From a virus: a DNA stretch of 36,560 nt. This document shows positions 2,171-34,880 of this stretch, piece by piece. The position numbers and the translations under genes were made by a program. A model generated the notes under the pieces. That model saw nothing but the letters and a program-made list of their open reading frames with translations, was not told where the DNA came from and searched no databases. The stretch covers positions 1 through 36,560 of the IMG/VR virus record IMGVR_UViG_3300034418_001230, one strand, 5' to 3'. The stretch's first letter is position 1, and the number at the start of each line of letters is the position of its first letter.

Positions 2171-2182
2171 GTATTTTTTAAC

Positions 2183-2196
2183 TATTATATTATATT
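2183..2196 (+). promoter_or_regulatory. ATTATATTATATT leader before the scaffold gene
   Basis: The 14 bases directly before the ATG, together with that ATG, are identical to 5310-5326 (TATTATATTATATTATG). A close relative lies before the gene at 13224. No Shine-Dalgarno sequence is present. It may be an AT-rich initiation region, or a promoter element lying against the start codon. The function is inference only. Confidence 0.35.
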
Positions 2197-3360
2197 ATGT
2201 CAACAACAAAACAAGAGCAAGAGGCTTTGCCTTTAAAAATAAAAAAGCCTTCATTAAAAAGGAATAACGATCAAGTGTATAAACTTGATATGAATAAAAA
2301 ACCAGAAGAAAAAGAAAAAGAAAATGCCGTTCCAGAGCAAAGCGCAGGAAGTTTGGATGAGGATAAACAAACCACAAATGTGGAAAAAGTGGAGGAAAGA
2401 GCACCCGAACCAAGTGTTGAGCCGGTTGCCGAAGAGAAAAAAGAAGAAGTAAATCCTTTAGAAGAAATTACTCCTGAAGAAAATAAAGAAGAAGTTGTAC
2501 AAGAAACTGTACAAGAGCATAAAGAAGAAACGCCAACTAAAAAACTTCCAGAAAACATAGAAGCTTTAGTAAGTTTTATGGAAGAAACAGGTGGTACTAT
2601 TGAAGATTATGCTAGATTAAATAGAAATTATTCAGAGTATAATGAAGATGCTATACTTAATGAATACTATAAAAGAACTAAACCACATTTAAATCAAGAA
2701 GAAATTAATTTTATAATGGAAGATAATTTCAAAATTGAAGAAGATGTGGATGATGAGCGAGAAATAAAAAAGAAAAAACTTGCTTATAAAGAAGAAATTG
2801 CTAAAGCCAAAAGCTTTTTGGAAGAAACAAAGAGTAAATACTACAAAGAAATCAAGTTGAGATCTAGTGGTTTAACTCCAGAACAACAAAAAGCTATGGA
2901 CTTTTTCAATAGACACAACAAAGAACAAGAAAAAGGAGCAAAGAATAGGGAAATATTTCTTACTAGTTCTAATAAGTTATTTAACGAAAGTTTCAAAGGT
3001 TTTGAATATTCAGTTGGAGAAAAAACTTTTAGATATAATATAAATAACCCTAGTGATATTGCTAAAAAACAATCAAATTTAAATAGTTTGTTTCAGAAGT
3101 TCTTGAACAAAGATGGTGCGATTGGTGATGCTAAAGGTTATCACAAAGCTTTATATACAGCACAAAATCCTGATAAAATTGCTTCTCATTTTTACGAACA
3201 AGGTAAAGCCGATGCTATAAGAAATATAACATCTAAATCAAAGAATATTGGTGAAGATATTAGACCTCAAGCAAACGGAGACATGTTTATAAATGGGTTG
3301 CGAGTAAAAGCGATTAGTGGTGTAGATAGTTCTAAGTTGAAATTTAAAATAAAAAAATAA
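2197..3360 (+). CDS. Putative capsid scaffolding protein
   Basis: 387 residues, very rich in Glu and Lys. The first ~120 residues are low-complexity and acidic with many EE and KE pairs and scattered prolines, so probably disordered. Residues ~180-260 are predicted helix/coiled coil, and the C-terminus is basic and ends in FKIKK. An acidic, helical, charge-rich protein between portal and major capsid genes is the standard setting for the scaffold that guides procapsid assembly. No protease motif is visible. The start at 2197 follows the portal stop by 26 bases and has the AT-repeat leader described separately. The call is by position and composition; a different head-assembly protein is possible. 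Confidence 0.7.
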   Translation: MSTTKQEQEALPLKIKKPSLKRNNDQVYKLDMNKKPEEKEKENAVPEQSAGSLDEDKQTTNVEKVEERAPEPSVEPVAEEKKEEVNPLEEITPEENKEEVVQETVQEHKEETPTKKLPENIEALVSFMEETGGTIEDYARLNRNYSEYNEDAILNEYYKRTKPHLNQEEINFIMEDNFKIEEDVDDEREIKKKKLAYKEEIAKAKSFLEETKSKYYKEIKLRSSGLTPEQQKAMDFFNRHNKEQEKGAKNREIFLTSSNKLFNESFKGFEYSVGEKTFRYNINNPSDIAKKQSNLNSLFQKFLNKDGAIGDAKGYHKALYTAQNPDKIASHFYEQGKADAIRNITSKSKNIGEDIRPQANGDMFINGLRVKAISGVDSSKLKFKIKK

Positions 3361-5273: not shown

Positions 5274-5300
5274 AAGATCCCGCTTCGGCGGGGTCTTTAT
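5274..5300 (+). terminator. Intrinsic terminator with UUCG tetraloop
   Basis: A 10-bp stem (5274-5283 with 5288-5297, one G-U pair) is closed by C(UUCG)G and followed by a short T-rich run. It lies 14 bases after the stop of the 111-aa gene and separates the capsid group from the tail group. UUCG closed by a C-G pair is an exceptionally stable loop. Confidence 0.9.
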
Positions 5301-5302
5301 TA

Positions 5303-5323
5303 ATTATTATATTATATTATATT
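5303..5323 (+). promoter_or_regulatory. ATT-repeat leader directly after the terminator
   Basis: An uninterrupted A/T string of ATT/TATATT units between the terminator and the ATG at 5324. Its last 14 bases plus ATG repeat 2183-2199 exactly. Coming right after a terminator, it could hold a new promoter; equally it could only keep the start codon unstructured. Confidence 0.35.
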
Positions 5324-6094
5324 ATGGAAACAAAAGTAAAAAACACTCCAGAGAAAAAAGATAATTGGGAGTATAAAGATAGAAATTATTATTTATTAAA
5401 AAACAAAATGCCTTTAACTCATACTATACCTAGCAAGCATTCTTCTAGATACCCTTTAGTATGGTTTGATAAAGAAAAAGGTTATGAAAGAGAAATGAGA
5501 TATGCTAGTAATCATAAGAGCATATTTGTTGACGAGCAAAAAGGTAACGTAACTTTAGCGCATATTGTTTTTGAAAAAGGACATTTACAAGTTCCTAAAG
5601 AAAAAAGAAATTTACAAGAGTTCTTAGCTAAACATCCACATAACGGTATTATATTTACAGAGTTTGATGCTGTAGTGGAAGCAGAAGATCATTTTGATTG
5701 GTTAGAACTAGAACTTGCAGCTTCTAATATGGCTTATGAAATGGACATTGATAAAGCCGAAGCTATATTAAGAGTTGAAAAAGGATCAAGCGTAAATCAA
5801 TTATCTTCTAAAGAATTAAAAAGAGATTTATTAATCTTTGCTAAACAACAACCAAAGTTGTTTTTAAATCTTTGTGAAGATGAAAACGTTGAATTAAGAA
5901 ACTTTGCTATCAAAGCAGTTGAAGCTAATATTATTACTTTAGCTGATGATAATAGAGTGTTTAAATGGACTAGTAATGGTAGAAAATTAATGACAGTTCC
6001 ATTTGAAGAAAACCCATATTCAGCAATGGCAGCTTGGTTAAAAACAGATGAAGGTATTGAAGTTTATAAATCAATACAGAAAAAACTAAAATAA
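5324..6094 (+). CDS. Conserved phage protein of the head-tail region, function unknown
   Basis: 256 residues. The N-terminal half includes IPSKHSSRYPLVWFDKEKGY and FVDEQKGNVTLAHIVFEKG, followed by VPKEKRNLQEFL. I remember this pattern from marine phage structural regions but know no function for it. The C-terminal half is helical and charged (SSKELKRDLLIFAKQQP). There is no signal peptide or membrane segment. It is flanked by terminators on both sides, so it appears to be its own transcription unit between the capsid genes and the tail adaptor genes. That is unusual for a purely structural gene and may mean a separately controlled level. A head-completion or assembly role is only a guess. Confidence 0.65.
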   Translation: METKVKNTPEKKDNWEYKDRNYYLLKNKMPLTHTIPSKHSSRYPLVWFDKEKGYEREMRYASNHKSIFVDEQKGNVTLAHIVFEKGHLQVPKEKRNLQEFLAKHPHNGIIFTEFDAVVEAEDHFDWLELELAASNMAYEMDIDKAEAILRVEKGSSVNQLSSKELKRDLLIFAKQQPKLFLNLCEDENVELRNFAIKAVEANIITLADDNRVFKWTSNGRKLMTVPFEENPYSAMAAWLKTDEGIEVYKSIQKKLK

Positions 6095-6109
6095 CAAGTG
6101 ATTATAATT

Positions 6110-6133
6110 AAGGCGGCCACGCGCCGCCTTTTT
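6110..6133 (+). terminator. Intrinsic terminator
   Basis: Perfect 8-bp stem AAGGCGGC/GCCGCCTT (6110-6117 with 6123-6130), five-base loop, then T-rich bases. It lies 15 bases downstream of the 256-aa gene and 13 bases before the next ATG. The G+C-rich stem stands out in this AT-rich genome. Confidence 0.9.
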
Positions 6134-6146
6134 AATATATATAAAT

Positions 6147-7220
6147 ATGGGAATTAATGTAAATACTGTTTACACTACAGTTTTAAGTATCTTGAATAAA
6201 GAACAAAGAGGTTATTTAACGCCGTACGAATATAATCTTTTAGCTAGTCAAGTTCAATTAGAAGTTTTTGAAACTTTCTTTGAAGACTACAACCAGTATT
6301 TACGTATGCCTAAAACAGATGAAGAATATGCTAGTAGAATAGAGCATGTAAGAGACGAATATCAATTGTTTGAAAAATTTGAGTCTGCATCAGCCAACAC
6401 TAATCCTTCTAATGTATATACTTATCCAACTGATTTACATAGGTTAGGAAGTGTATTTTATAATGGCGTTAAAGGTTCGCCAAGAATACAATTAGTTAGT
6501 CAAAGAGAATTTAGACAACTAAACATGTCACCGTTAACTCAACCGAGTGAAACATTTCCAATAGCAACATTTAAAGATAATAAACTAACTGTATATCCTC
6601 AGATAACTAATGGTAATCCAGCTGTTACATCTGTTAGTGATGTTAAGTTTAGTTACATGCGTAAGCCTACAGATCCACGTTGGGGATTTTATGTAGGTGA
6701 CTTAGGCCAATATATATACGACTCTAGAACTTTTTCTACTTCTAAACTGATTATAGGACAAACTTTTACTGTTTTTCCATCTTTTCCAGTTGGAACTACG
6801 GCAGCTGCTGGAACTTACACTGGAGTAGTTACGTCAACTAATGGAGTTGGAACTGGTTGTTTATTAGATATAACTATAGCAGGATCAGGTACAATAACTT
6901 TATCTAGCGCTAATACTACTATAAAAATTTCTACTTTAGATAACAGCTCAGGATATGCTGTTAATAATGCGTTGTCTGTTGCTGCTGGCGCATTTGGATC
7001 GTTGAACAATGGTTTTTCATTAAGACTTATAGAAGCAAAAGATTTAATGACTAAAACTAATACAACTCAAGGAAGTATTGATTATGAAATAGATGATTCA
7101 CAAAGAAACACTGTTACAATGGAAATATTAAAATATTCTGGCGTAATCGTAAAAGATCCTGGCGTAGTCAATGCAGCTTATAAAGAATTAGCTGAAGATC
7201 AAGCAAACGAAAAAAGATAA
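6147..7220 (+). CDS. Head-tail adaptor / tail tube-like structural protein
   Basis: 357 residues. The N-terminal ~190 residues are a conserved-looking core: MGINVNTVYTTVLSILNKEQ, a helix of QVQLEVFETFFEDYNQYL type, then LTVYPQI and SYMRKPTDPRWGF. The core resumes at about residue 305 with DYEIDDSQRNTVTMEILKYS and ends in helix. Between them (about 216-296) lies a Gly/Thr/Ser-rich beta segment that looks inserted (see findings). The core resembles adaptor or tail-tubular proteins of podovirus and crAss-like type as I remember them. It overlaps nothing and is followed by the next tail gene after three bases. Role assigned by context and remembered similarity. Confidence 0.65.
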   Translation: MGINVNTVYTTVLSILNKEQRGYLTPYEYNLLASQVQLEVFETFFEDYNQYLRMPKTDEEYASRIEHVRDEYQLFEKFESASANTNPSNVYTYPTDLHRLGSVFYNGVKGSPRIQLVSQREFRQLNMSPLTQPSETFPIATFKDNKLTVYPQITNGNPAVTSVSDVKFSYMRKPTDPRWGFYVGDLGQYIYDSRTFSTSKLIIGQTFTVFPSFPVGTTAAAGTYTGVVTSTNGVGTGCLLDITIAGSGTITLSSANTTIKISTLDNSSGYAVNNALSVAAGAFGSLNNGFSLRLIEAKDLMTKTNTTQGSIDYEIDDSQRNTVTMEILKYSGVIVKDPGVVNAAYKELAEDQANEKR

Positions 7221-8430: not shown

Positions 8431-11400
8431 ATGGCATTAGCGAAAAATATATTTATCAAGTCTAAGATGAACAAAGACTTAGACGAAAGGCTAGTAGGTA
8501 AAGGCGAGTACAGAGATGCTCAGAATATTAATGTAAGTAGATCTGAAGGTGATGATGTAGGTTCTGTTGAAAATGTGTTAGGAAATGAATTAGTAACTAA
8601 TCTAATTACGAGTACAATATATGACAATAAGCAAGTTATAGGTCAGTATATTGATCAAAGTAAAGAAAGAGGATTTTTTTATATAACAGATCACTATGAT
8701 AATTCGAGTGATAGATTAAGTAATTTTGCAGGTAAAGGTTCTACTCATACAATAATAATGAGAGACTTTACAAATAATAGTACTCATACATTAGTAGAAG
8801 GTAGGTTTTTAAATTTTTCTATTACTCACCCTATACTTAATGTAGATTTAATTGAAGATTTATTATTTTGGACTGATGATAGAAACCAGCCAAGAAGAAT
8901 AAACGTAGATAAAGCTTTAGCTAGTTCTACTCATTACACAACAGAAGATAATATATCGGTAGCAAAATATAATCCTTATAATCCTATAAGTTTAGTTAAT
9001 GAATTTACTGTTACTGTACTAAGTGGTACGTTGACTGGGCCTGGACCTTTTACTTTAAGTGCTGCAGATTATGCTAAAATAAGACAAGGGCAATTTGTTA
9101 AAATGCCTAACACAAATACTCAATCAACGCCTTGCATTATACAAAGTACGTCAGCTAGTGCTAGAACTTTTACACTAAATCAAGATCTTGATGAGACAGA
9201 TCCTACAGCTACTACTTTAACCATACTAGAAACTGGATCTAAAAACGTTTCAGATAGATTTACAGAAGCTACAGTATTTGGTACTGCAGGTTCTCCCGCC
9301 ACTGTTGGCTCTACTATAGATTTTACTGTGAGTAATTTATCTGGAAATTTGTACCCAAGCATGCGTGTGTTTAATAGTAGAACAAAGTCTGTTATAACAA
9401 TAACTGAGTTACCTGGTTATGTTTTAGGAGACAATAGTGCCACTGTTAAAACTACAGGTGGTGGATTAACAGAAATGCGAGAAGCTTTTGAAAATCTTCC
9501 ACCAGCAACAAACTATAATGCTTTAGTTTATTTTGCCGATTCTAACTCTCAATATTTATCTAACTTTTCAGGTGATACAGAATATTTAAGAGATAAGTTT
9601 GTTAGGTTTAGTTATAGATTTAAATTTGAAGATGGCGAATATTCTTTAATAGCTCCGTTTACTAGCCCTGCTTTCGTACCTAAACAGAATGGACACATTG
9701 TAGATATTAATCAATTATATGATGGTACTACAGCTACTACTGGTCAAACAAATGTAGAAAGAGGTTATGAAAATATAGCTAGAAGTACTGTTGTAGATTT
9801 TTTTGAAAACAGTGTTAATGTGGTTGATTTAAATATACAGACTCCTTTTGCTGTAAATACTCTATATGATAATTTAAAAATAGAAGAAATAGACATACTT
9901 TATAAAGAGTCAGATACTTTAGCTGTAAGAATATTAGAAACTATACCTAGAACTGATACTAGAATTACTTCTAATTCAACTAATACATTTACATATAACT
10001 ACAACTCTAATGAACCAAAACTACCTATTACAGAAGCACAGTTAGTTAGAGTATTTGATAGAGTACCTATTAGAGCTAAGACTCAATCTGTTACTGGCAA
10101 TAGAGTTGTTTATGGTAATTTTTTAAATAAGCATACTCCACCTGAAGCTTTGAGTTACAATGTAGAAATTAGCGCTAAATTAAATTCAAGAGAAGACTCT
10201 TCAGGTCTTCCTAAAAATCCTGCTAATTTATTAGTTAAACATCCTACAGCTAGTGTAAAACAAAATAGAACTTATCAAATAGGTATAATACTAGCAGATC
10301 GATACGGAAGACAAACAGATGTAATTTTATCAGATGCAGACGCTAATCAATTTAGTTATGCTGGTGGTAGTTATGGCGGTGATACAGTTTTTCATAAATA
10401 TTTTTCAACAGGAAGAGCGCAAGTTAACCGTATAAACAGGTGGTTTGGTGATTCAATTAAAGTTTTGTTTAGATCTGTAATACCTAATAGTGTGTCTTAC
10501 GCGGATGGTTATCCAGGTTTATATAAGACAGGTAGCTACACGGCGACTGTAACCTCTTCACTTATTGGAAGTAGTTTTGGTATAACAAACTTTAGTGAAA
10601 ACCCTGAAGTTGGAGACATTATTACTATAGGAGGTGTTGATTATGCAATGTCAGCTGTTTCTATATCTTATCCTACTTACCCTGCATCTCCAACAGCTAA
10701 CATAACTTTAAGCCCAACGCCACCAAGTATAGGTTCTATTGGCACAGTTTATAATGTAGTTGGCGAAGCTAATCCGTTAGGTTTTTATAGCTATAAAGTT
10801 GTAATTAAGCAACTAGAAGACGAGTATTACAATGCTTATTTAGGTAATGTTATACAAGGAGGTTTTAAAGATCAAAAAGATAGTACAGGTACTTTACTAG
10901 AACAAGGTTTATTTAGGACTTCATTATCTTATGCTAGTTTATTTGGTAGTAATATAAATAAAGTACCAGCAGATTTATCTGAAACAGAACCTAACCAACA
11001 ATTGTTTGCCCCTAATACTACTAAGTTGTTTCCAAGAGTACAATCTACTATGGCTATTGGCTCGAGTACAGTAGTAACTAATAATTTTTATGTGTCTAAT
11101 ACTACAGCTGATAAAAGTAATCCGTTTGTAACAGGTGTTTTTTCTGCTAAACTAACAGATTTAAAAGCTTTAGACTTAGCCGCTAGTACACCACTAACAG
11201 GCGTTGGTTTTGTAAATGCCCAGCAAGATCCTATAGGTTTTAAAATGAATACAAATGGTAGAAACATAGGTGTGCCAGTAGTAAACCCAACATACGTTAA
11301 TACATCGTTTATCAGCTCTGATCTTAGATTAAACGTAATGGAAGTAGAGCCACCTAAATCTGAAATACAAATATATTACGAAACTGCGTGTTCAGGATTA

Positions 11401-11493
11401 GTAAGCGATTTAAATGTTCAAATAGCAACAGGAACAGGTGCTAGTGGTACAGCTCCAGATCCACCTGATAGTGATGATGCAGTAAGTTCATAA
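8431..11493 (+). CDS. Large tail structural / stabilisation protein
   Basis: 1020 residues. The start is characteristic: KSKMNKDLDERLVGKGEYRD followed by AQNINVSRSEGDDVGSVENV. This N-terminal pattern is widespread in large tail proteins of marine phages and crAss-like phages, where homologues are called tail or stabilisation proteins. The rest is almost entirely beta-rich, with Thr/Ser/Gly-rich stretches (about 195-350 and 700-780) that look like modules added to a conserved backbone. Conserved-looking backbone segments include FRFSYRFKFEDGEYSLIAPF-type sequence near residue 390 and NRTYQIGIILADRYGRQTDV near 615. It is followed after 11 bases by a second large protein with which it probably forms one tail substructure. 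Confidence 0.7.
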   Translation: MALAKNIFIKSKMNKDLDERLVGKGEYRDAQNINVSRSEGDDVGSVENVLGNELVTNLITSTIYDNKQVIGQYIDQSKERGFFYITDHYDNSSDRLSNFAGKGSTHTIIMRDFTNNSTHTLVEGRFLNFSITHPILNVDLIEDLLFWTDDRNQPRRINVDKALASSTHYTTEDNISVAKYNPYNPISLVNEFTVTVLSGTLTGPGPFTLSAADYAKIRQGQFVKMPNTNTQSTPCIIQSTSASARTFTLNQDLDETDPTATTLTILETGSKNVSDRFTEATVFGTAGSPATVGSTIDFTVSNLSGNLYPSMRVFNSRTKSVITITELPGYVLGDNSATVKTTGGGLTEMREAFENLPPATNYNALVYFADSNSQYLSNFSGDTEYLRDKFVRFSYRFKFEDGEYSLIAPFTSPAFVPKQNGHIVDINQLYDGTTATTGQTNVERGYENIARSTVVDFFENSVNVVDLNIQTPFAVNTLYDNLKIEEIDILYKESDTLAVRILETIPRTDTRITSNSTNTFTYNYNSNEPKLPITEAQLVRVFDRVPIRAKTQSVTGNRVVYGNFLNKHTPPEALSYNVEISAKLNSREDSSGLPKNPANLLVKHPTASVKQNRTYQIGIILADRYGRQTDVILSDADANQFSYAGGSYGGDTVFHKYFSTGRAQVNRINRWFGDSIKVLFRSVIPNSVSYADGYPGLYKTGSYTATVTSSLIGSSFGITNFSENPEVGDIITIGGVDYAMSAVSISYPTYPASPTANITLSPTPPSIGSIGTVYNVVGEANPLGFYSYKVVIKQLEDEYYNAYLGNVIQGGFKDQKDSTGTLLEQGLFRTSLSYASLFGSNINKVPADLSETEPNQQLFAPNTTKLFPRVQSTMAIGSSTVVTNNFYVSNTTADKSNPFVTGVFSAKLTDLKALDLAASTPLTGVGFVNAQQDPIGFKMNTNGRNIGVPVVNPTYVNTSFISSDLRLNVMEVEPPKSEIQIYYETACSGLVSDLNVQIATGTGASGTAPDPPDSDDAVSS

Positions 11494-11504
11494 ATTTAAA
11501 AATT

Positions 11505-13214
11505 ATGTCAGCAGTAATAGAAGTAGATTTTAATAACACTTATTTAATTAAGCAGACTTATAGCCAATCATTGAATGGTAGGACAAACTCTAATCCTAAT
11601 AGACACATGGCATTAGGCCCTGGAATATGCTGGCCTGGCGGTATTGATCTTACCATTGGATCGAGTGGAACAAATCAAGACAGAATAAATGGATTTTATT
11701 CTAACTTTTACATAGAAGAATCTAGAATAAGAGGTGATTTTAATGCTGTTAGTATAGATAAAGGTGTTAGAGCTTTTTTAGATGATCCATTTCCGCTACA
11801 ACAACATAGGTTTAATACATTAATTTATTCTGGTATATACAACTCTAGAACAGGTATTAATAACACAAATGTGTTTTCTACTGGTACAGACATTACTAAG
11901 TCCTTAGATCCTGAGAATGGAACTATACAGCGCACTTTAGCCGAAGATACTAACATGGTTGTGTTTCAGGAAAACAAAATTAGTAGAGCGTTAATAGATA
12001 AAGACACTATATATACCACGGAAAGTGGTACTCAAACTCAGTCAGGTGCCGCCGTTATAGGTCAGTTTGTACCTTACAAAGGAGTTTATGGTATTAGTAA
12101 AAATCCAGAGTCTTTAGCAACTTATGGTTATAGAAAATATTTTTCTGATAGAAACAGAAATGCTATATTGAGATTATCTAATGATGGTCTTACTGAGATT
12201 AGTGCTTATGGTATGGAAGATTATTTTAGAGATGAGTTAGCTAAAGTAAAAGATACTAACACAGCATACAGCATCCCAGCTACAGGAAATTTTACAGTGT
12301 CAAGTGGTGGTAATATTGGAGACATGACTTTAACTTTAAATCTTACTGGAGTAACGCCAATACCTTCAACAGGTATGACAATTCCAAGTAACCCAGGTTA
12401 TATAACTCAAATCGATGCTTCTACTCCAAGTGCTGTAAAAATATTTTATTCACTACCTTTTGTTACAGATCTTAGTGTTAAAGTTAAGTTTGAATATTCT
12501 GAAAATGGCAAAGTAAAAGGAGGCTGGGATGTTCATAATAGAAATTATATTGTGTCCTTGCAAGAATCTCCATTATTAAAATCTAAAACAGAAAATTTTC
12601 AAACACTAGCATTTGATGATAAGGTAAATGGGTGGGTAAGTTTTTATACTTATAAACCAGAAACAATTTTCTCTGTAAAAAATAATTATTTTACTACTCA
12701 AGAAGTAGGTTTATTTAAACACTATTCAGAGGTAGTTAATACTAGAAACACATTTTACGGAACAGCTAGTCCTTCTACAATAACTTGTGTATTTAATGTA
12801 CAGCCAAGTTTAGTAAAAAACTTTAAAACTGTGGGATATGAAGGTAGTAGTGGTTGGGAAGTAGAGTCTTTTGTTTCTGACTTTACGGGAGTTAATCAAT
12901 TGCCGGCTGGTACATATGTAGAAAATCAAGATCAAACTCTATCTGTCAAAAGTTATGAAGAAGGAAAATATGTAGATCCTATTACTGGTCAAACTTTAAA
13001 TGCTGGCTTTAATAGGAAGGAAAATATTTATGTAGCTAATATAGTTTCTAACTCTACAGCTATGCCAAACGAAGTATCATTTGGTAATCAAATAACAGGT
13101 ATAAGAGGCTTTGTAGCTACTGTTAAGTTTAAAACAGATAACACTACACAATTAGGTGGAACTAAACAACTTTGGTCTACTAGATCAGATTATGTTAATT
13201 CCAATGGATTTTAA
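11505..13214 (+). CDS. Tail structural protein, probable partner of the preceding 1020-aa protein
   Basis: 569 residues, beta-rich. Segments IDKGVRAFLDDPFPLQQHRF, NTLIYSGIYNSRTGINNTN and YKGVYGISKNPESLATYGYR are of a kind I recall from the C-terminal half of very large phage tail proteins that begin with the DERLV..GEYRDA motif, the start seen in the preceding gene. This suggests the pair are two halves of what is a single chain in other phages, or a dedicated complex. A Gly/Ser/Thr-rich insert lies at about residues 255-325. The leader is A/T-rich (aaatttaaaaattATG). There is no sign of a frameshift: both genes have clean ends and the intergenic stop is followed by a good start. Confidence 0.65.
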   Translation: MSAVIEVDFNNTYLIKQTYSQSLNGRTNSNPNRHMALGPGICWPGGIDLTIGSSGTNQDRINGFYSNFYIEESRIRGDFNAVSIDKGVRAFLDDPFPLQQHRFNTLIYSGIYNSRTGINNTNVFSTGTDITKSLDPENGTIQRTLAEDTNMVVFQENKISRALIDKDTIYTTESGTQTQSGAAVIGQFVPYKGVYGISKNPESLATYGYRKYFSDRNRNAILRLSNDGLTEISAYGMEDYFRDELAKVKDTNTAYSIPATGNFTVSSGGNIGDMTLTLNLTGVTPIPSTGMTIPSNPGYITQIDASTPSAVKIFYSLPFVTDLSVKVKFEYSENGKVKGGWDVHNRNYIVSLQESPLLKSKTENFQTLAFDDKVNGWVSFYTYKPETIFSVKNNYFTTQEVGLFKHYSEVVNTRNTFYGTASPSTITCVFNVQPSLVKNFKTVGYEGSSGWEVESFVSDFTGVNQLPAGTYVENQDQTLSVKSYEEGKYVDPITGQTLNAGFNRKENIYVANIVSNSTAMPNEVSFGNQITGIRGFVATVKFKTDNTTQLGGTKQLWSTRSDYVNSNGF

Positions 13215-25049: not shown

Positions 25050-25205
25050 TTATATTTTAATAGTTATACCTATTGACACTATAAAAGCGCCGCTTGCTAT
25101 TGCAAGTGTGTTTGCATTAAAGTTTGGCTTTTGTTTATGCCAAATCATATTAGTACCAGCCATAGTCATCATGCCAATACCTCCTATTATTGCTAATCGT
25201 TTCAT
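25050..25205 (-). CDS. Small two-helix membrane protein
   Basis: 51 residues. Two hydrophobic segments, about 4-21 (LAIIGGIGMMTMAGTNMI) and 34-49 (LAIASGAFIVSIGITI), are joined by a short polar linker WHKQKPNFNAN. The start codon overlaps the RNR stop as ATGA, a sign of translational coupling, which supports a real gene. Phage proteins of this form may be holins, superinfection-exclusion or membrane-anchor proteins. Nothing here decides between these, and being coupled to RNR rather than to a lysin argues against a simple holin call. Confidence 0.7.
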   Translation of the reverse strand: MKRLAIIGGIGMMTMAGTNMIWHKQKPNFNANTLAIASGAFIVSIGITIKI

Positions 25206-27064
25206 ACTATTTCACACGCGCCTCCTGCACAAGCTAATTCACCAGCTAGATCAGTTTCATCTTCAACTTCTACTATATTAGTAAGATTAACATCAGTTAA
25301 ACTTTTCATCATAGTTTTATATTTAGATTCATCTATATCTTCAAACGGCGCTTGAGTATAAGTACCACCATCATATGGTAGGACAGATAGCCCGTTATAA
25401 TAGTCCCTATTGTCCCACATCCATTTACCAGCTTTATCCCACTCATCTTGCTTTAAACTAACAGTAGCTGAAACATTGTGAGTATTACTACCACGTTTGT
25501 GACCTGGTTGTACCCACTCAGTTGCTACTTTCTTTATACGCTCTAGCAAATCAAACGGTGATTCAGTTCTAAGTATAGATCCTTCAGGCGCTTTTTGTGG
25601 TATACTAATTACAGCAGTATCATGAGGTCTAAAGTATTCATCTTCAATTAAATCAGGGTGATTATTAACTAAGTATTTATACATACTTTCGTTTTTACCA
25701 ACTCTAACTCTACGAACATAATAATCATTATGCCATGCATGTATACCCGATGAAGTTCCTAATGCCAGAGATGTTGTCCCAGCAGGCTTCACGGTTGTAC
25801 ATCTAGCAGCTGGTTTGATACCTATTTTTCTAGCTGTTTGTTTGTTTTTGCTTACTACTATATCTGCAGCTTCCGTCATATCCAACTGCAGCACAGCGGC
25901 AGAGCCTATTCCTGTCATTGATACACCTATAAGGGCGTCCTTCTCTGTCGTATCTTTCCATATGTCTCTTAAATAATGAAAGTCAGTATAACCTGCTTGT
26001 AGTGTACCTATAAATGAAGCTACTCTACATCTATCGTTAAAATCAATTTGATCTTTAATATCACTAGCATTTACCTCACATAAGTTACAAAACTGATATG
26101 GACGTAAAGCTATTTCACAACAAGGATTAGTCCCCCAGTCTTTATCGTTGTTAAAGTAAATACCTGGTTCGCCTGATCCTGATCGCTCAACACGTTTCCA
26201 TAAGTCCATAAAAAATCCTTTATTTATTTTATGTCTCATAAGTACAGCTGAATTATTAGCACGACCTCGTTGAGGTGCTTCTTCCCACCAGTGTCCAGAC
26301 TTACAACCTATCATTGCCTCGTCATCTGCAGAAAACAAACTAATTAAAGCTGCTCTACGAATACCACCTGCTAATACAGCGTCAGCTATATGACAAACAA
26401 TATCGTGAGCTTGTAATGTAGTTAATTTATCTCCGTCTTCTACATCGCTAAGTATACCAGCTACTTTTACTATACACTCTTTTAAAGGTTGTGGACCTGG
26501 AGCTTTGCCTCCAGACGTAACTAATTGTGCGCCTTTTGGTCTTATATCGGAATAATCAAATGTTATCTTAGATGATCTCTTAGGACCCATGTAAGACTTA
26601 ATTAAAACTTTAATTGCATCAGCCCAGCCTTCGATACTGTCACCGATTAGATGTCTTCTAGTTCTTTTACTATAAGGTTGATTAACCGAAGGTAGTTTAT
26701 TAACATGATGATGTTGTACAGAATAACCTACACCAGTACCACCGAGTAATAAAAACATTATTTCATTAAAAGACTCAATGCTATCAATAGGTAGATAAGC
26801 ACAATTATAAACTCGATTAGGCGAGATCTCAATCGGTTTGCCTCCGAACTGTAGCGAACGCATAGACGGTAAAACTTTCTTTTCATACACAAATTTATAA
26901 GCAGCTTCAATTTCATCAACAAGTTTAGGATATTTTTTGATATGCATGTTCTTGTTTCTAGTAACTAGTTCTTCCCATGTTTCCCTTCTGTTTAATTCAG
27001 GTACGTATTTAGCATACTTCATGTAAACAGTAATATCACTTAGTATCTTGTTTGATAGCTCCAT
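25202..27064 (-). CDS. nrdJ: Adenosylcobalamin-dependent class II ribonucleotide reductase
   Basis: 620 residues. Reduces ribonucleotides to deoxyribonucleotides with a thiyl radical made from coenzyme B12, supplying dNTPs for phage replication. Visible: LPSMRSLQFGG and RVYNCAYLPI (first redox Cys), LLGGTGVGYSVQ, NNSAVLM, the radical site NPCCEIALRP (Cys315, Glu317), PAGTTSLALGTSSGIH, and the C-terminal swinging-arm pair CAGGAC in the last eight residues. No second subunit (NrdB-like) or activase is nearby, as expected for class II. The layout is like the monomeric Lactobacillus-type enzyme (about 740 residues), although this one is shorter. The start at 27064 is kept because LSDITVYMKYAKYVPEL looks like the conserved N-terminus; it overlaps the upstream gene by 29 bases. 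Confidence 0.93.
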   Translation of the reverse strand: MELSNKILSDITVYMKYAKYVPELNRRETWEELVTRNKNMHIKKYPKLVDEIEAAYKFVYEKKVLPSMRSLQFGGKPIEISPNRVYNCAYLPIDSIESFNEIMFLLLGGTGVGYSVQHHHVNKLPSVNQPYSKRTRRHLIGDSIEGWADAIKVLIKSYMGPKRSSKITFDYSDIRPKGAQLVTSGGKAPGPQPLKECIVKVAGILSDVEDGDKLTTLQAHDIVCHIADAVLAGGIRRAALISLFSADDEAMIGCKSGHWWEEAPQRGRANNSAVLMRHKINKGFFMDLWKRVERSGSGEPGIYFNNDKDWGTNPCCEIALRPYQFCNLCEVNASDIKDQIDFNDRCRVASFIGTLQAGYTDFHYLRDIWKDTTEKDALIGVSMTGIGSAAVLQLDMTEAADIVVSKNKQTARKIGIKPAARCTTVKPAGTTSLALGTSSGIHAWHNDYYVRRVRVGKNESMYKYLVNNHPDLIEDEYFRPHDTAVISIPQKAPEGSILRTESPFDLLERIKKVATEWVQPGHKRGSNTHNVSATVSLKQDEWDKAGKWMWDNRDYYNGLSVLPYDGGTYTQAPFEDIDESKYKTMMKSLTDVNLTNIVEVEDETDLAGELACAGGACEIV

Positions 27065-29097: not shown

Positions 29098-29794
29098 ATT
29101 TTCTAGCTCTTGATGTTAACGTATTTTGTTCAGGTAATTTATCATTGTATATGTGTAAGTTATGTGCGAAATGATAGTATGTACCCATGTCAATACCTGT
29201 TCTTTCACAAACTAAATTTTGTAACATACTGAAACAGTATTGATCATTACAAAAGCCATACCATAAATCATTAGATCGCATTACAACACACATATTTAAT
29301 TTGCCTTTTACAACTGTAAATTGTACAGCATAAGTACAAGGCGTGTCTTTTCTATATTTATTTATTTCTTTACCATCATATATAGATATTGCAGCTTGCC
29401 TTGTATCAGGATTATTTTTTAATTGTGCAACAACTTTATCTAGCTGATGAGCTCTTTCCCATTGGTAACCATAGTTAGAATTAACTAATCTTTTAGGACC
29501 AAGAGCCATACGTTCCCATATAGCTGGAACTCTCCCGTATATCTCACCTAGTTTATCTACTGAGTCATCGCCTGATAAATACCACTGCCATTCAGCTTCG
29601 GCATATTCCATATTGAACGCACGTTTTTCATTATCTATCATGCGTTCCCATGGCCTTTCAATAGTAAAGCCTTGATTAAACATAGCTTTAGTACCTGCAA
29701 AGTCTACGCCTTCGTAAGGTATTGTGCCATAGTAAAAATCAAAAGCCTCACTAGCATTTTTAAATGTTAATTGTCTCATATAATTATTATCCAT
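29090..29794 (-). CDS. Thymidylate synthase / dCMP hydroxymethylase family enzyme
   Basis: 234 residues from ATG 29794. This start gives an eight-base overlap with the upstream gene; an ATG at 29836 would add 14 residues and a 50-base overlap. Family motifs: KDTPCTYAVQF with the catalytic Cys153, VVMRSNDLWYGFCNDQY (the Arg-Ser phosphate-binding part, then the region that selects the base) and HFAHNLHIYN. The family transfers a one-carbon unit from methylene-tetrahydrofolate to C5 of dUMP (TS) or dCMP (hydroxymethylase). The residue that separates the two activities falls in Cys-Asn-Asp (182-184) and cannot be assigned safely by hand. The protein is slightly shorter than E. coli ThyA (264). 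Confidence 0.85.
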   Translation of the reverse strand: MDNNYMRQLTFKNASEAFDFYYGTIPYEGVDFAGTKAMFNQGFTIERPWERMIDNEKRAFNMEYAEAEWQWYLSGDDSVDKLGEIYGRVPAIWERMALGPKRLVNSNYGYQWERAHQLDKVVAQLKNNPDTRQAAISIYDGKEINKYRKDTPCTYAVQFTVVKGKLNMCVVMRSNDLWYGFCNDQYCFSMLQNLVCERTGIDMGTYYHFAHNLHIYNDKLPEQNTLTSRARKYG

Positions 29795-30050
29795 TGCCCT
29801 TCGTATTTTGTTTGTAATAATATCTATACATTTCAAATAGTTTAGGGTATATTTCTGTTCTACTATAATCTCCTGGGCTAATCATTTCTTTATTGTTTGC
29901 TACGATACGTATTTTCCAAGATCCAACATCAAAACCTGGTGTAGCGGCTAATACGCCTATTTTAATCCCGTGATTAACACACCATCTATAAGCTTCTTTA
30001 TCTTCTTTAGTCCATTTAACTTCGTCAAACGTGAATTTTTTTAGTCCCAA
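29787..30050 (-). CDS. Small conserved phage protein, unknown function
   Basis: 87 residues. The sequence WTKEDKEAYRWCVNHGIKIG followed by VLAATPGFDVGSWKIRIVAN and EIYPKLFEMYRYYYKQ resembles short unknown proteins I recall beside replication genes in marine phages. Likely a small alpha/beta fold; no catalytic motif is evident. Its start overlaps the end of the primase-helicase gene by 10 bases and its end overlaps the TS gene by eight, so it belongs to the replication operon. Confidence 0.7.
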   Translation of the reverse strand: MGLKKFTFDEVKWTKEDKEAYRWCVNHGIKIGVLAATPGFDVGSWKIRIVANNKEMISPGDYSRTEIYPKLFEMYRYYYKQNTKGNG

Positions 30051-32820: not shown

Positions 32821-33350
32821 AATGTTGCTAATTCCTGCTCTTGCGCTTTAGTTAAATTATATTTAGCCTTAATAGCGCTTAAATTACCACCGCTCTTAAC
32901 ATACTCTTTAGCTTTAATTAGCTGAGCTGTTGATATAGCTGCTTGTGTAACTGTTTGGTTTTTACCGTGTGTATTTGTAGCATCCGCATCTTGAGTATCA
33001 TCAATCAAGAACAGATTACCTAGTGCATATTTCTTACCGTAAGAACTTGCTGCACCATATCGCTGTGGCATTTGCATACCTTTCTGATCTAAGTCAACAC
33101 CCACAATAGCTATAGCATTTAAGCTGTCTTTGCCATCGGCTACTGTTGCTGTAACTTTTAATACAGGAGGCTCAAAACTAATTAAGTCTTCTTGTATTGT
33201 TACTGTTACATCTAGCTCCTTTAAAAAGGGTTTTGTAGCTTCGAGAATGTCTTCGGCAGATCGGAAATAATACTTGCCGAAAGAGTTGTATCTACTTTTT
33301 TTCGATTTAAACTCTTGTTGAATTTTGGATAATTTTTGGTATATTGTCAT
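32817..33350 (-). CDS. ERF-family single-strand annealing protein
   Basis: About 177 residues from ATG 33350; an ATG at 33368 adds MCNYNS. The ERF signature is clear: KLSKIQQEFKSKKSRYNSFG near the start, YYFRSAEDILEATKPFLKE, and YGAASSYGKKYALGNLFLID, then DDTQDAD. ERF proteins anneal complementary single strands, for genome circularisation, repair or concatemer formation. The C-terminal ~50 residues are a helical tail that may contact partners. It is coupled to the exonuclease through a four-base overlap. Confidence 0.9.
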   Translation of the reverse strand: MTIYQKLSKIQQEFKSKKSRYNSFGKYYFRSAEDILEATKPFLKELDVTVTIQEDLISFEPPVLKVTATVADGKDSLNAIAIVGVDLDQKGMQMPQRYGAASSYGKKYALGNLFLIDDTQDADATNTHGKNQTVTQAAISTAQLIKAKEYVKSGGNLSAIKAKYNLTKAQEQELATL

Positions 33351-33380
33351 ACTATTATAATTACACATTTATTTATTAAT

Positions 33381-34130
33381 TTACAGATAGTCAAGCACTT
33401 GCGAGTGATCTACCGTGTCAATAAGCTTTTGTACAGCTTGCTTTTTAAGTTCAGAAACTCTTACATAATCAGACACACCTTGTATACCTAAGTCTGCTGC
33501 TATTTGTTTTGCAGATAACTTCTTACCTGTTAAACCATAGCTTTTAGCAAGCACATAAGCTTCATCGTCTGTTAAGTATTTATTTAATAAACTTACTAAA
33601 TAAGCATTTAACAATTGCTCATTGTATGGATCTGACTTATCAGGTATTTGATAAGCCATATCTTCGTTTTTTGGGTTAGCATCAACAGATAAAAATATAG
33701 AGTTAAAAAACATTTCAACCATTTTTTTATCTTTACCACCATCTTTACGCATCTCATTTAATTTATGCTCAGGTATACGCATTGTTCCTCTATTTTTATC
33801 AATAGCTCTACGTATTCCACCTCTTATACGCTTAGATAAAAAAGACTTTAACGTTTGTTCTACATCGTCAGATGCAGTTACTTTTTCCCAGTCTATTTTA
33901 TTTACAGCTTTAATTAAGTTCACATGTCCTTCTTGGATTATATCCATAATGGACATAACTCCTGAAGCTTCTTGAGATGTAGCAAATTTGCGGCTTATGT
34001 TTTCAACTAATGGCATGAACTTTATTATTAGTTCATCACGGGTATAAAAAGAATATGGTTTATCTACAGGCATACTTAATTTTAAGTCTTCCTTATATCT
34101 AACATAATTCTGTATATTATATTTTTTCAT
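33381..34130 (-). CDS. Sigma-70-family transcription factor
   Basis: 249 residues. Region 2 lies at ~33-115: LIIKFMPLVENISRKFA, then SIMDIIQEGHVNLIKAVNKI and FLSKRIRGGIRRAIDKNRGT, the helices that bind core polymerase and the -10 element, followed by MRIPEHKLNEMRK. Region 4 lies at ~178-240 with LTDDEAYVLAKSYGLTGKKL and an HTH (SAKQIAADLGIQ...RVSELKKQA) for the -35 element. Region 1.1 is absent and region 3 is much reduced. It would redirect host RNA polymerase to phage promoters, probably those of the virion genes. No phage RNA polymerase is visible here. It overlaps the upstream HTH gene by 14 bases. Confidence 0.88.
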   Translation of the reverse strand: MKKYNIQNYVRYKEDLKLSMPVDKPYSFYTRDELIIKFMPLVENISRKFATSQEASGVMSIMDIIQEGHVNLIKAVNKIDWEKVTASDDVEQTLKSFLSKRIRGGIRRAIDKNRGTMRIPEHKLNEMRKDGGKDKKMVEMFFNSIFLSVDANPKNEDMAYQIPDKSDPYNEQLLNAYLVSLLNKYLTDDEAYVLAKSYGLTGKKLSAKQIAADLGIQGVSDYVRVSELKKQAVQKLIDTVDHSQVLDYL

Positions 34131-34737
34131 GTTTATTATTTAACTCTTGTTTTTCTTCTCTGAGTTCTTCACCCATGTTTCTATGTATTGTTCTTGGTGT
34201 ACAACCTAGAACTTTTGCTATTTTAGATATTGTGATAATTCCTTCATCATGTACCTGTAGCATAGCTTCGTAAATATCTTCTTGTTTTATTGCTTTGCCT
34301 CTACCTATTATTTGGCCTACAATACTTAATTTTTCAGTTACGCTAAGACCTGAACCATCTTTAAATACTATTTTACGTATTTTATTTTTAGGAGGTTGCT
34401 CAAGATCTTGTAAGTAAACATCGTTTATAATTTCTTTTAACATGTTGGCAGGTAAATTAAATGTAGTAAACCCATTAGGTTTATAGGTTATTACACTTGT
34501 TAGTTCAGAAAACTGTGTTTTATCCATGTCAGGGTTTAGATACCACAATACCAACAAATGCCATTTTAAAGATTTATAGGTATTTATCTTTGCCTTAGTG
34601 TTAAACAGACTGTAATAGCCGTAAGTACCGTCAGCATAATACCAACCCCAGTCATAGCTAGTTGTTGGTATATCTGGCGGATACCTACGATATACAATGC
34701 GCTTATCATTTAGATATTTCATAGCGCGATGTGACAT
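34117..34737 (-). CDS. Helix-turn-helix protein, probable regulator
   Basis: 206 residues. The N-terminal ~130 residues are aromatic-rich (RRYPPDIPTTSYDWGWYYAD, YGYYSLFNTKAKINTYKSLK) and of unknown fold. A C-terminal HTH lies at ~160-190: GIITISKIAKVLGCTPRTIH, with the typical turn at LGCTPRT. It is basic and ends in a charged helix. It overlaps the sigma factor gene by 14 bases and touches its own upstream gene as TAATG, which suggests linked production with the sigma factor. It may act as a transcription regulator or as a replication-initiation DNA binder. The family is not recognised. Confidence 0.7.
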   Translation of the reverse strand: MSHRAMKYLNDKRIVYRRYPPDIPTTSYDWGWYYADGTYGYYSLFNTKAKINTYKSLKWHLLVLWYLNPDMDKTQFSELTSVITYKPNGFTTFNLPANMLKEIINDVYLQDLEQPPKNKIRKIVFKDGSGLSVTEKLSIVGQIIGRGKAIKQEDIYEAMLQVHDEGIITISKIAKVLGCTPRTIHRNMGEELREEKQELNNKHEKI

Positions 34738-34880
34738 TAGCCTTTTACTTTAATATCTTTAGGCCTATTGTCACACAATGTAGCCCAGTATAACTGGTGC
34801 TCATTCTTTAAACCTCTTTGATTTATTTCTTCATCAAGCCATTTTTGGCTATAATATAATATCCAATCAGAATTTTTCAT
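34737..34880 (-). CDS. Small hypothetical protein (47 aa)
   Basis: 47 residues beginning MKNSDWILYYSQKWLDEEIN and ending RPKDIKVKG. The stop overlaps the next start as TAATG, and its own start overlaps the previous stop as ATGA. Such coupling on both sides makes it a real gene. Helical, with Trp and Tyr early. Function unknown. Confidence 0.65.
   Translation of the reverse strand: MKNSDWILYYSQKWLDEEINQRGLKNEHQLYWATLCDNRPKDIKVKG

Follow-up and report, generated by a model that had tools for sequence, protein, structure and literature searches.

The window analysed here, the whole of a linear virus record of 36,560 bp, carries close to its right end two genes read leftward, one for a protein of the sigma-70 type and, upstream of it, one for a protein with a helix-turn-helix (HTH). 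A sequence-only reading of this DNA had drawn attention to the pair at 33381-34737, with its 14-base overlap, and had described a sigma-70-like protein lacking region 1.1 and a full region 3. Both ORFs were found again, on the minus strand, the overlap covering 34117-34130, and the description of the protein agrees with the searches given below. Four kinds of repeated element, which we call M1 to M4, are found at the pair and elsewhere on the two strands, and their places in the window are collected with those of the genes in Table 1.

Table 1. Genes and repeated elements of the window (a dot marks an element without strand)
Feature	Position	Strand	Remarks
M2 AT-rich element	2178..2199	+	before gene at 2197, which precedes the capsid-type gene
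M2 AT-rich element	5300..5326	+	before gene at 5324
M3-like element (AACAAGTGATTATAAT)	6093..6113	+	-10 part only; before gene at 6147
M1 element (TTACAAAC..AATACGA..GATAATA)	29785..29817	-	before thyA; sole M1 site of the window
M3 promoter-like element (GTAAA..TGTAATTATA)	33356..33384	-	at sigma stop codon, before erf
Sigma-70-type factor, 249 aa	33381..34130	-	regions 1.2, 2 and 4; apparently without region 1.1, without recognisable region 3
HTH protein, 206 aa	34117..34737	-	C-terminal helix-turn-helix; 14-nt overlap with sigma
M4, 44-bp inverted repeat	34731..34774	.	over HTH start codon; likely operator (predicted)

Genome layout and the sigma-HTH gene pair

By sequence comparison, the window amounts to roughly half of a podophage genome of 60-70 kb. 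This is the genome size of the relatives (22 related records), with which the window has its gene order in common, and two of them, at 66,084 and 64,561 bp, carry 127-bp end repeats; the earlier description of a small phage does not fit genomes of this length. The genes are laid out in two arms, the virion genes being read rightward and the sigma and replication genes leftward. On the leftward arm are small genes, ligase, HTH, sigma, erf, exonuclease, primase-helicase, thyA and mazG, and also the RNR of the window, which is found there in some relatives only. Since the window ends just past ligase, the control region is absent from it. The portal protein of the window matches that of an Elemovirus at 41% and that of MW202828 at 49%, and its capsid-type protein matches those of Maribacter phage Panino at 45% and Cellulophaga phage Calle_1 at 35.5%; these homologous genes suggest that the phage is akin to flavobacterial podophages of the Elemovirus/Calle kind. 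Relatives of the sigma protein number 154 in viral contigs. The phages form a large marine family with its own sigma factor, which probably infects Bacteroidota. For whole-genome motif work 22 records were taken from 86 sigma/HTH loci, and motif counts are given over 23 genomes.

Some further genes were noted in passing. Two adjacent proteins (8431-11493 and 11505-13214) look like two parts of one Crassvirus muzzle protein; PF25731, the muzzle protein itself, was matched at E 9.8e-10, and PF25729, its C-terminal domain, at E 7.7e-10. The RNR is of the B12 type in the window (25202-27064), and the matching place in relative G003 (L100:3409-6547) is taken by class Ia-like large and small subunits. 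A DNA polymerase gene was seen neither in the window nor among 10 scanned ORFs of G003 (L098-L101); Panino and Calle_1 have one.

The sigma protein matched PHROG 351, "RNA polymerase sigma factor", with an E value of 3.7e-19. Its Pfam matches to region 2 (E 7.4e-5) and region 4 (E 0.011) are both under the curated cut-off for the window protein; in the aligned family, at E<=1, region 2 was matched by 49 of 52 sequences and region 4 by 47, and neither the protein nor its family gave a match to the Pfam models of region 1.1 and region 3. A profile of the family found RpoD in the PDB (2.6e-8). The predicted model of the protein, which has a mean pLDDT of 78 and a low-confidence linker at residues 148-169, gave a SigA chain as best Foldseek match (E 5.2e-6). 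Its residues 5-114 superpose on E. coli sigma70 from residue 94, covering regions 1.2 and 2 (Z 13.0, rmsd 2.1, 98 residues aligned), and against whole SigA or RpoD chains the alignment extends to residue 249. On the grounds of regions 2 and 4 and of a predicted sigma fold, we assign the protein to the sigma-70 family. The missing region 1.1 is no oddity, since the primary sigma of Bacteroidota also lacks it according to PMC6847099. Residues K100-R101, G104 and R107 are all invariant in the 52 sequences. Their counterparts in region 2.4 of RpoD are W-W, Q and T, to which we presume roles in -10 recognition, and their replacement would agree with an altered -10 recognition by the phage sigma.

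The HTH protein matches Pfam HTH_7 at residues 145-186 (E 1.5e-5). Counting identical sequences once and the window as one, with L001 (the window again) left out, there are 81 unique sigma loci, and in 76 of them the HTH gene lies upstream of sigma; the HTH match is missing at the other five. The two genes overlap in 55 loci (by exactly 14 nt in 45), are separated by 31-150 nt in 17 and stand further apart in four. This pairing exceeds chance. Among the contigs G054, G073, G090 and G069, three with M1 (66-130 kb) contain two copies of the HTH-sigma pair, perhaps as overlapping or joined assemblies, and the sigma reading frame of G069 is broken. A tblastn search of named phages returned no match to the HTH protein. 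Its fold had no significant match among solved structures (best E 0.22); residues 148-206 gave a VIA match with Z up to 5.5, and the viral model A0A516MIB4 was matched at E 4.3e-9. The Elemovirus, in which sigma has no match, has a rightward gene (L089:18914-19822) whose product is weakly related to the middle of the HTH protein (E 7.6e-4).

Repeated elements on the two arms

Among 425 upstream regions, an unguided search for pairs of words at fixed spacing found, among others, ACGA-9-GATA 45 times, with 1.6 expected, and led to M1, an element with consensus TACAAA-N3-AATACGA-N9-GATAATA and a matrix made of tTACAAActaAATACgA, 9 bases and GATAATA. In 21 of the 23 genomes M1 has 122 sites in all, and reversed sequences gave no site that passed the threshold; the remaining two genomes stop just upstream of HTH. 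All 122 sites are on the leftward strand, in the arm with the sigma and replication genes, and in the three genomes drawn they stand mostly before the small genes upstream of ligase. For thyA, which follows the M1 site of the window, the true ATG is likely at 29779, and the mechanically listed ORF start (29836) is further upstream, in or near M1. When M1 was used as bait, leaving out contigs already obtained with sigma and most of the short contigs, sigma was found in 32 and HTH in 33 of 41 contigs among those listed, and sigma in all 22 of these 41 that measure at least 56 kb. The nine without sigma also lack primase-helicase and erf, which indicates that this part of the genome is missing from them.

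M1 can be likened to the T7-class promoter layout, AATACGA, 8 nt, then a purine and G. Read in this way, with AATACGA at -16 to -10 followed by 8 nt, transcription would start at the G of GATAATA and give a leader of about 12 nt, and in 29 of the 122 sites this G does lie 12 nt ahead of the next called ATG; M1 would then belong to a single-subunit T7-like polymerase that has been missed, and the sigma factor would serve other promoters. We consider this very improbable. No T7-type polymerase (PF00940) was found in any of 73 records (51 + 22) by a search that recovered the T7 control at 9.9e-110, no convincing T7 motif set was present in large ORFs, and the scanned large ORFs of one complete relative are mostly annotated otherwise. 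A 2907-aa protein was rejected as a virion polymerase, with no notable Pfam match and no conserved DxDxD. No phage RNA polymerase gene was seen in the window, which has little weight because the window is about half of the genome; the 73 records extend this negative for the T7 type.

M3, with consensus TGTAAA-N14-TGTRAnTATAATA, stands in front of the rightward arm as well as between sigma and erf. Iterating a weight matrix for it was abandoned, as the matrix drifted to AT-rich sequence (108 intergenic matches against 16 in the reversed control at the first iteration, 461 against 264 at the last), and the strict pattern GTAAA-N12-16-[AT]GTRANTAT[AT] was used instead. In the 23 genomes this pattern has 41 sites, against five in the reversed control, and 21 of the genomes carry it in the sigma-erf interval. 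Within 110 nt after sigma, strict M3 (spacer 11-17) is present in 61 of the 81 loci and absent in 20, while the -10 part by itself is present in 78. Several genomes also have M3 ahead of their first rightward gene, and it precedes some virion genes. The true ATG of erf is likely at 33350, the mechanically listed start (33368) being further upstream, in or near M3. At the 3' end of sigma (33381-33413), codons -10 to -5 (GAT CAC TCG CAA GTG CTT) have 86-100% codon identity in the 81 loci and are better kept than most of the codons that precede them; CACTCGCAAGTG, at this end, occurs 19 times in the 23 genomes and at most once per genome. These codons may act as a cis element ahead of the erf promoter.

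The two elements have nearly equal spacing, TACAAA-19-GATAAT in M1 and TGTAAA-20-TATAAT in M3, and we infer that both may be TRYAAA/KATAATA promoters of one sigma. They differ in the first base of the -10 part and in the spacer, so that one sigma may not read both.

M2 is AT-rich, of the approximate form TTAAyTATTwwATTATATTATATTATG, and in most genomes read it stands before each of the two genes that flank the capsid-type gene. It gave 133 matches (127 on the plus strand and six on the minus strand, with four in the control), which are not 133 sites, because the sequence is of low complexity and matches overlap in two registers. M2 may in part reflect A/T-rich translation starts. Directly ahead of the M2 element at 5300..5326 is a terminator-like hairpin (5276-5295).

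The sequence-only reading had seen in the gene pair an early-to-late switch that might drive the virion operon, and had proposed a shared motif, other than the host's, before late units. Such elements do occur, M3 and M2 being placed before rightward and virion genes; the strongest motif, M1, is confined to the arm with sigma and the replication genes, so that the reach of the sigma factor may go well beyond a late virion operon, or its targets may be of a class that is not late. An early-to-late order would be one possible timing. A sigma that is a late factor for the virion arm only, acting through M3, M2 or both, with M1 as an early promoter used by host polymerase and perhaps a phage helper, is a possibility that we take seriously while thinking it unlikely. 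It would be suited by the place of M1, in front of small leftward genes that lie upstream of sigma, a stretch in which one expects early genes, and by M3 and M2 ahead of rightward and virion genes; the sigma of phage 7-11 works in this way (PMC8948821). Against it, M1 is unlike the host box TTTG/TAnnTTTG and is absent from the four relatives without sigma described below, and M3 is found on the leftward arm too, before erf.

M4 is an inverted repeat of 44-46 bp with half-site GTGACA.taGcc..TtA, placed at the start of the HTH gene and, secondly, in the divergent control region. There are 36 dyads in the 23 genomes and two in the control. Among the 75 loci with enough upstream sequence, an exact-core M4 is at the HTH start in 62 and absent in 13. 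Of 14 copies read away from the HTH gene, 12 sit 38-189 nt ahead of a rightward gene and two face none; strict M3 lies beside seven of the 12, and in two copies, by eye, about 3 nt separate the end of M4 from the -35 part of M3 that follows it. The TGACA arms are invariant and one copy is away from any start codon, which favours a DNA operator over an RNA hairpin, and we read M4 as a putative operator. Also by eye, a further element near TTACnnATAGAG, read leftward, is seen directly to the left of the divergent repeat in several genomes.

The HTH protein is coded among recombination and replication genes, there are about two M4 repeats per genome, and the protein resembles no solved structure significantly; it might thus be a replication initiator or some other DNA-binding protein, with M4 as an origin mark and no switch in transcription. 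We find this rather unlikely, because operators are usually placed just as M4 is: one copy covers the HTH start codon, and the other precedes the rightward arm, in many cases with a promoter-like element next to it.

Host-type promoters and the proposed transcription programme

Four relatives without sigma were available for comparison: MW202828 and an Elemovirus, both read in part, Panino and Calle_1. None of the four has M1, strict M3 or M4, and the sigma profile found nothing in them (best E 0.16); the absence of the motifs is confounded with descent, as these are only four phages, more distant, and from other hosts. M2 reached one score of 15.1 in the Elemovirus, below the cut-off of 18. 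The Bacteroidota promoter is of the TTTG/TAnnTTTG type, and its -7 box, TAnnTTTG, is taken from PMC6847099 and PMC9723704. TAnnTTTG is found in 47 of 127 upstream regions of the relatives without sigma, where shuffling predicts about 11, and in about 34 of the 425 upstream regions of the sigma-bearing set, close to the chance expectation of about 26. Matches to TTG..TAnnTTTG in sigma-bearing genomes were set aside, since they had been collected without a control and also from outside upstream regions.

Both groups probably infect hosts of one phylum, since their translation starts are alike: both favour A at -3, -6, -12 and -13, and neither has an excess of Shine-Dalgarno sequences (0.74 and 1.14 times the expected number in the two groups), which reach 3.19 times expectation in stretches of phiEco32 and 7-11. 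The relatives by portal and capsid-type genes infect Flavobacteriia. An attempt to identify the host from MAG bins was dropped; the six matches fell in Aliivibrio, Lewinella, Ilumatobacteraceae and Halieaceae, probably as phage contigs binned with cells, and we therefore name no host. These mixed bins leave some room for a host whose promoters are not of the TAnnTTTG kind, in which case M1 and M3 would be the host's own promoters and the phage sigma a minor regulator. This we regard as decidedly unlikely in view of the resemblance of the translation starts to those of flavobacterial phages, of the Flavobacteriia infected by the portal and capsid-type relatives, and of the way M1 tracks sigma in every larger contig among those listed.

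We lean, with limited assurance, towards a transcription-control module of this podophage family in which sigma and HTH constitute a phage-specific promoter system working on host core polymerase. Early in infection some leftward genes would be made, followed by HTH and sigma. The sigma factor would bind host core RNA polymerase and direct it to phage promoters on both arms that do not resemble the TTTG/TAnnTTTG type of the host, the candidates being M3 (TGTAAA and TATAATA about 20 bp apart, the latter extended by TGTRA) and M1 (TACAAA and GATAATA 19 bp apart, with AATACGA in the spacer). The HTH protein, bound to M4 at its own start codon, would limit its own synthesis, and bound to M4 in the divergent region it would lower or raise the flanking promoters and so time the opening of the rightward arm. 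A stronger version, which we put forward only tentatively and consider doubtful, is that host promoters have been abandoned on both arms, nearly every unit having a phage promoter, and that the HTH protein switches the arms through one divergent operator. With host-type boxes near chance, the sigma factor would then be needed at the start of infection, for instance brought in with the virus particle or expressed from a single cryptic host promoter.

Comparison with known systems

Among podophages, phiEco32 and 7-11 have their own sigma, which sends host polymerase to late promoters, of the form GTAAtg-(16)-aCTA in 7-11 and a single tAATGTAtA element in phiEco32 (PMC8948821). The phage studied here is like them in that its virion arm is read rightward and its sigma gene (gp36 in phiEco32 and gp47 in 7-11) lies on a leftward arm, and by analogy its sigma may redirect the core enzyme as theirs do; the -35 element of 7-11 also resembles the GTAAA of M3. 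Aligned by hhalign, each time against a single sequence, the sigma protein gave E 0.28 with gp36, where no kinship could be detected, and a marginal 0.012 with gp47. The present system differs in its HTH partner, its repeated operator-like element, its promoters and probably the phylum of its host. Three weak matches were obtained by tblastn of the sigma protein against named phages, and Synechococcus phage S-CBS1 (rpsD4; two records) was the only named phage matched, with E 6e-4 and 34% over part of the protein; its host and genome are different.

Compared with cellular factors, the phage sigma shares regions 1.2, 2 and 4, by fold, with the Bacteroidota primary sigma (sigma ABfr) and with RpoD/SigA, and with sigma ABfr it shares the apparent lack of region 1.1. 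It is unlike both in its length of 249 residues and in having no recognisable region 3, in the region 2.4 residues, where W-W, Q and T give way to K-R, G and R, and in the motifs nearby, which are not TAnnTTTG.

The related genomes of Elemovirus, Panino and Calle_1 (Pervagoviridae) have homologous portal and capsid-type proteins and a two-arm layout, but no sigma was found in them, and they have host-type boxes instead of M1, strict M3 and the repeat. In open-licence papers we came across no sigma factor in flavobacterial phages, which does not imply that none has been published. A phage sigma that redirects host polymerase is already known, and what is new here is the HTH partner, the operator-like repeat and the promoter set. 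A large marine phage family thereby gains a testable transcription programme, made of a factor, its partner, promoter classes and an operator, for which the relatives that have no sigma and keep host-type promoters offer a natural comparison. If confirmed, this programme would provide a separate sigma and promoter set for Bacteroidota.
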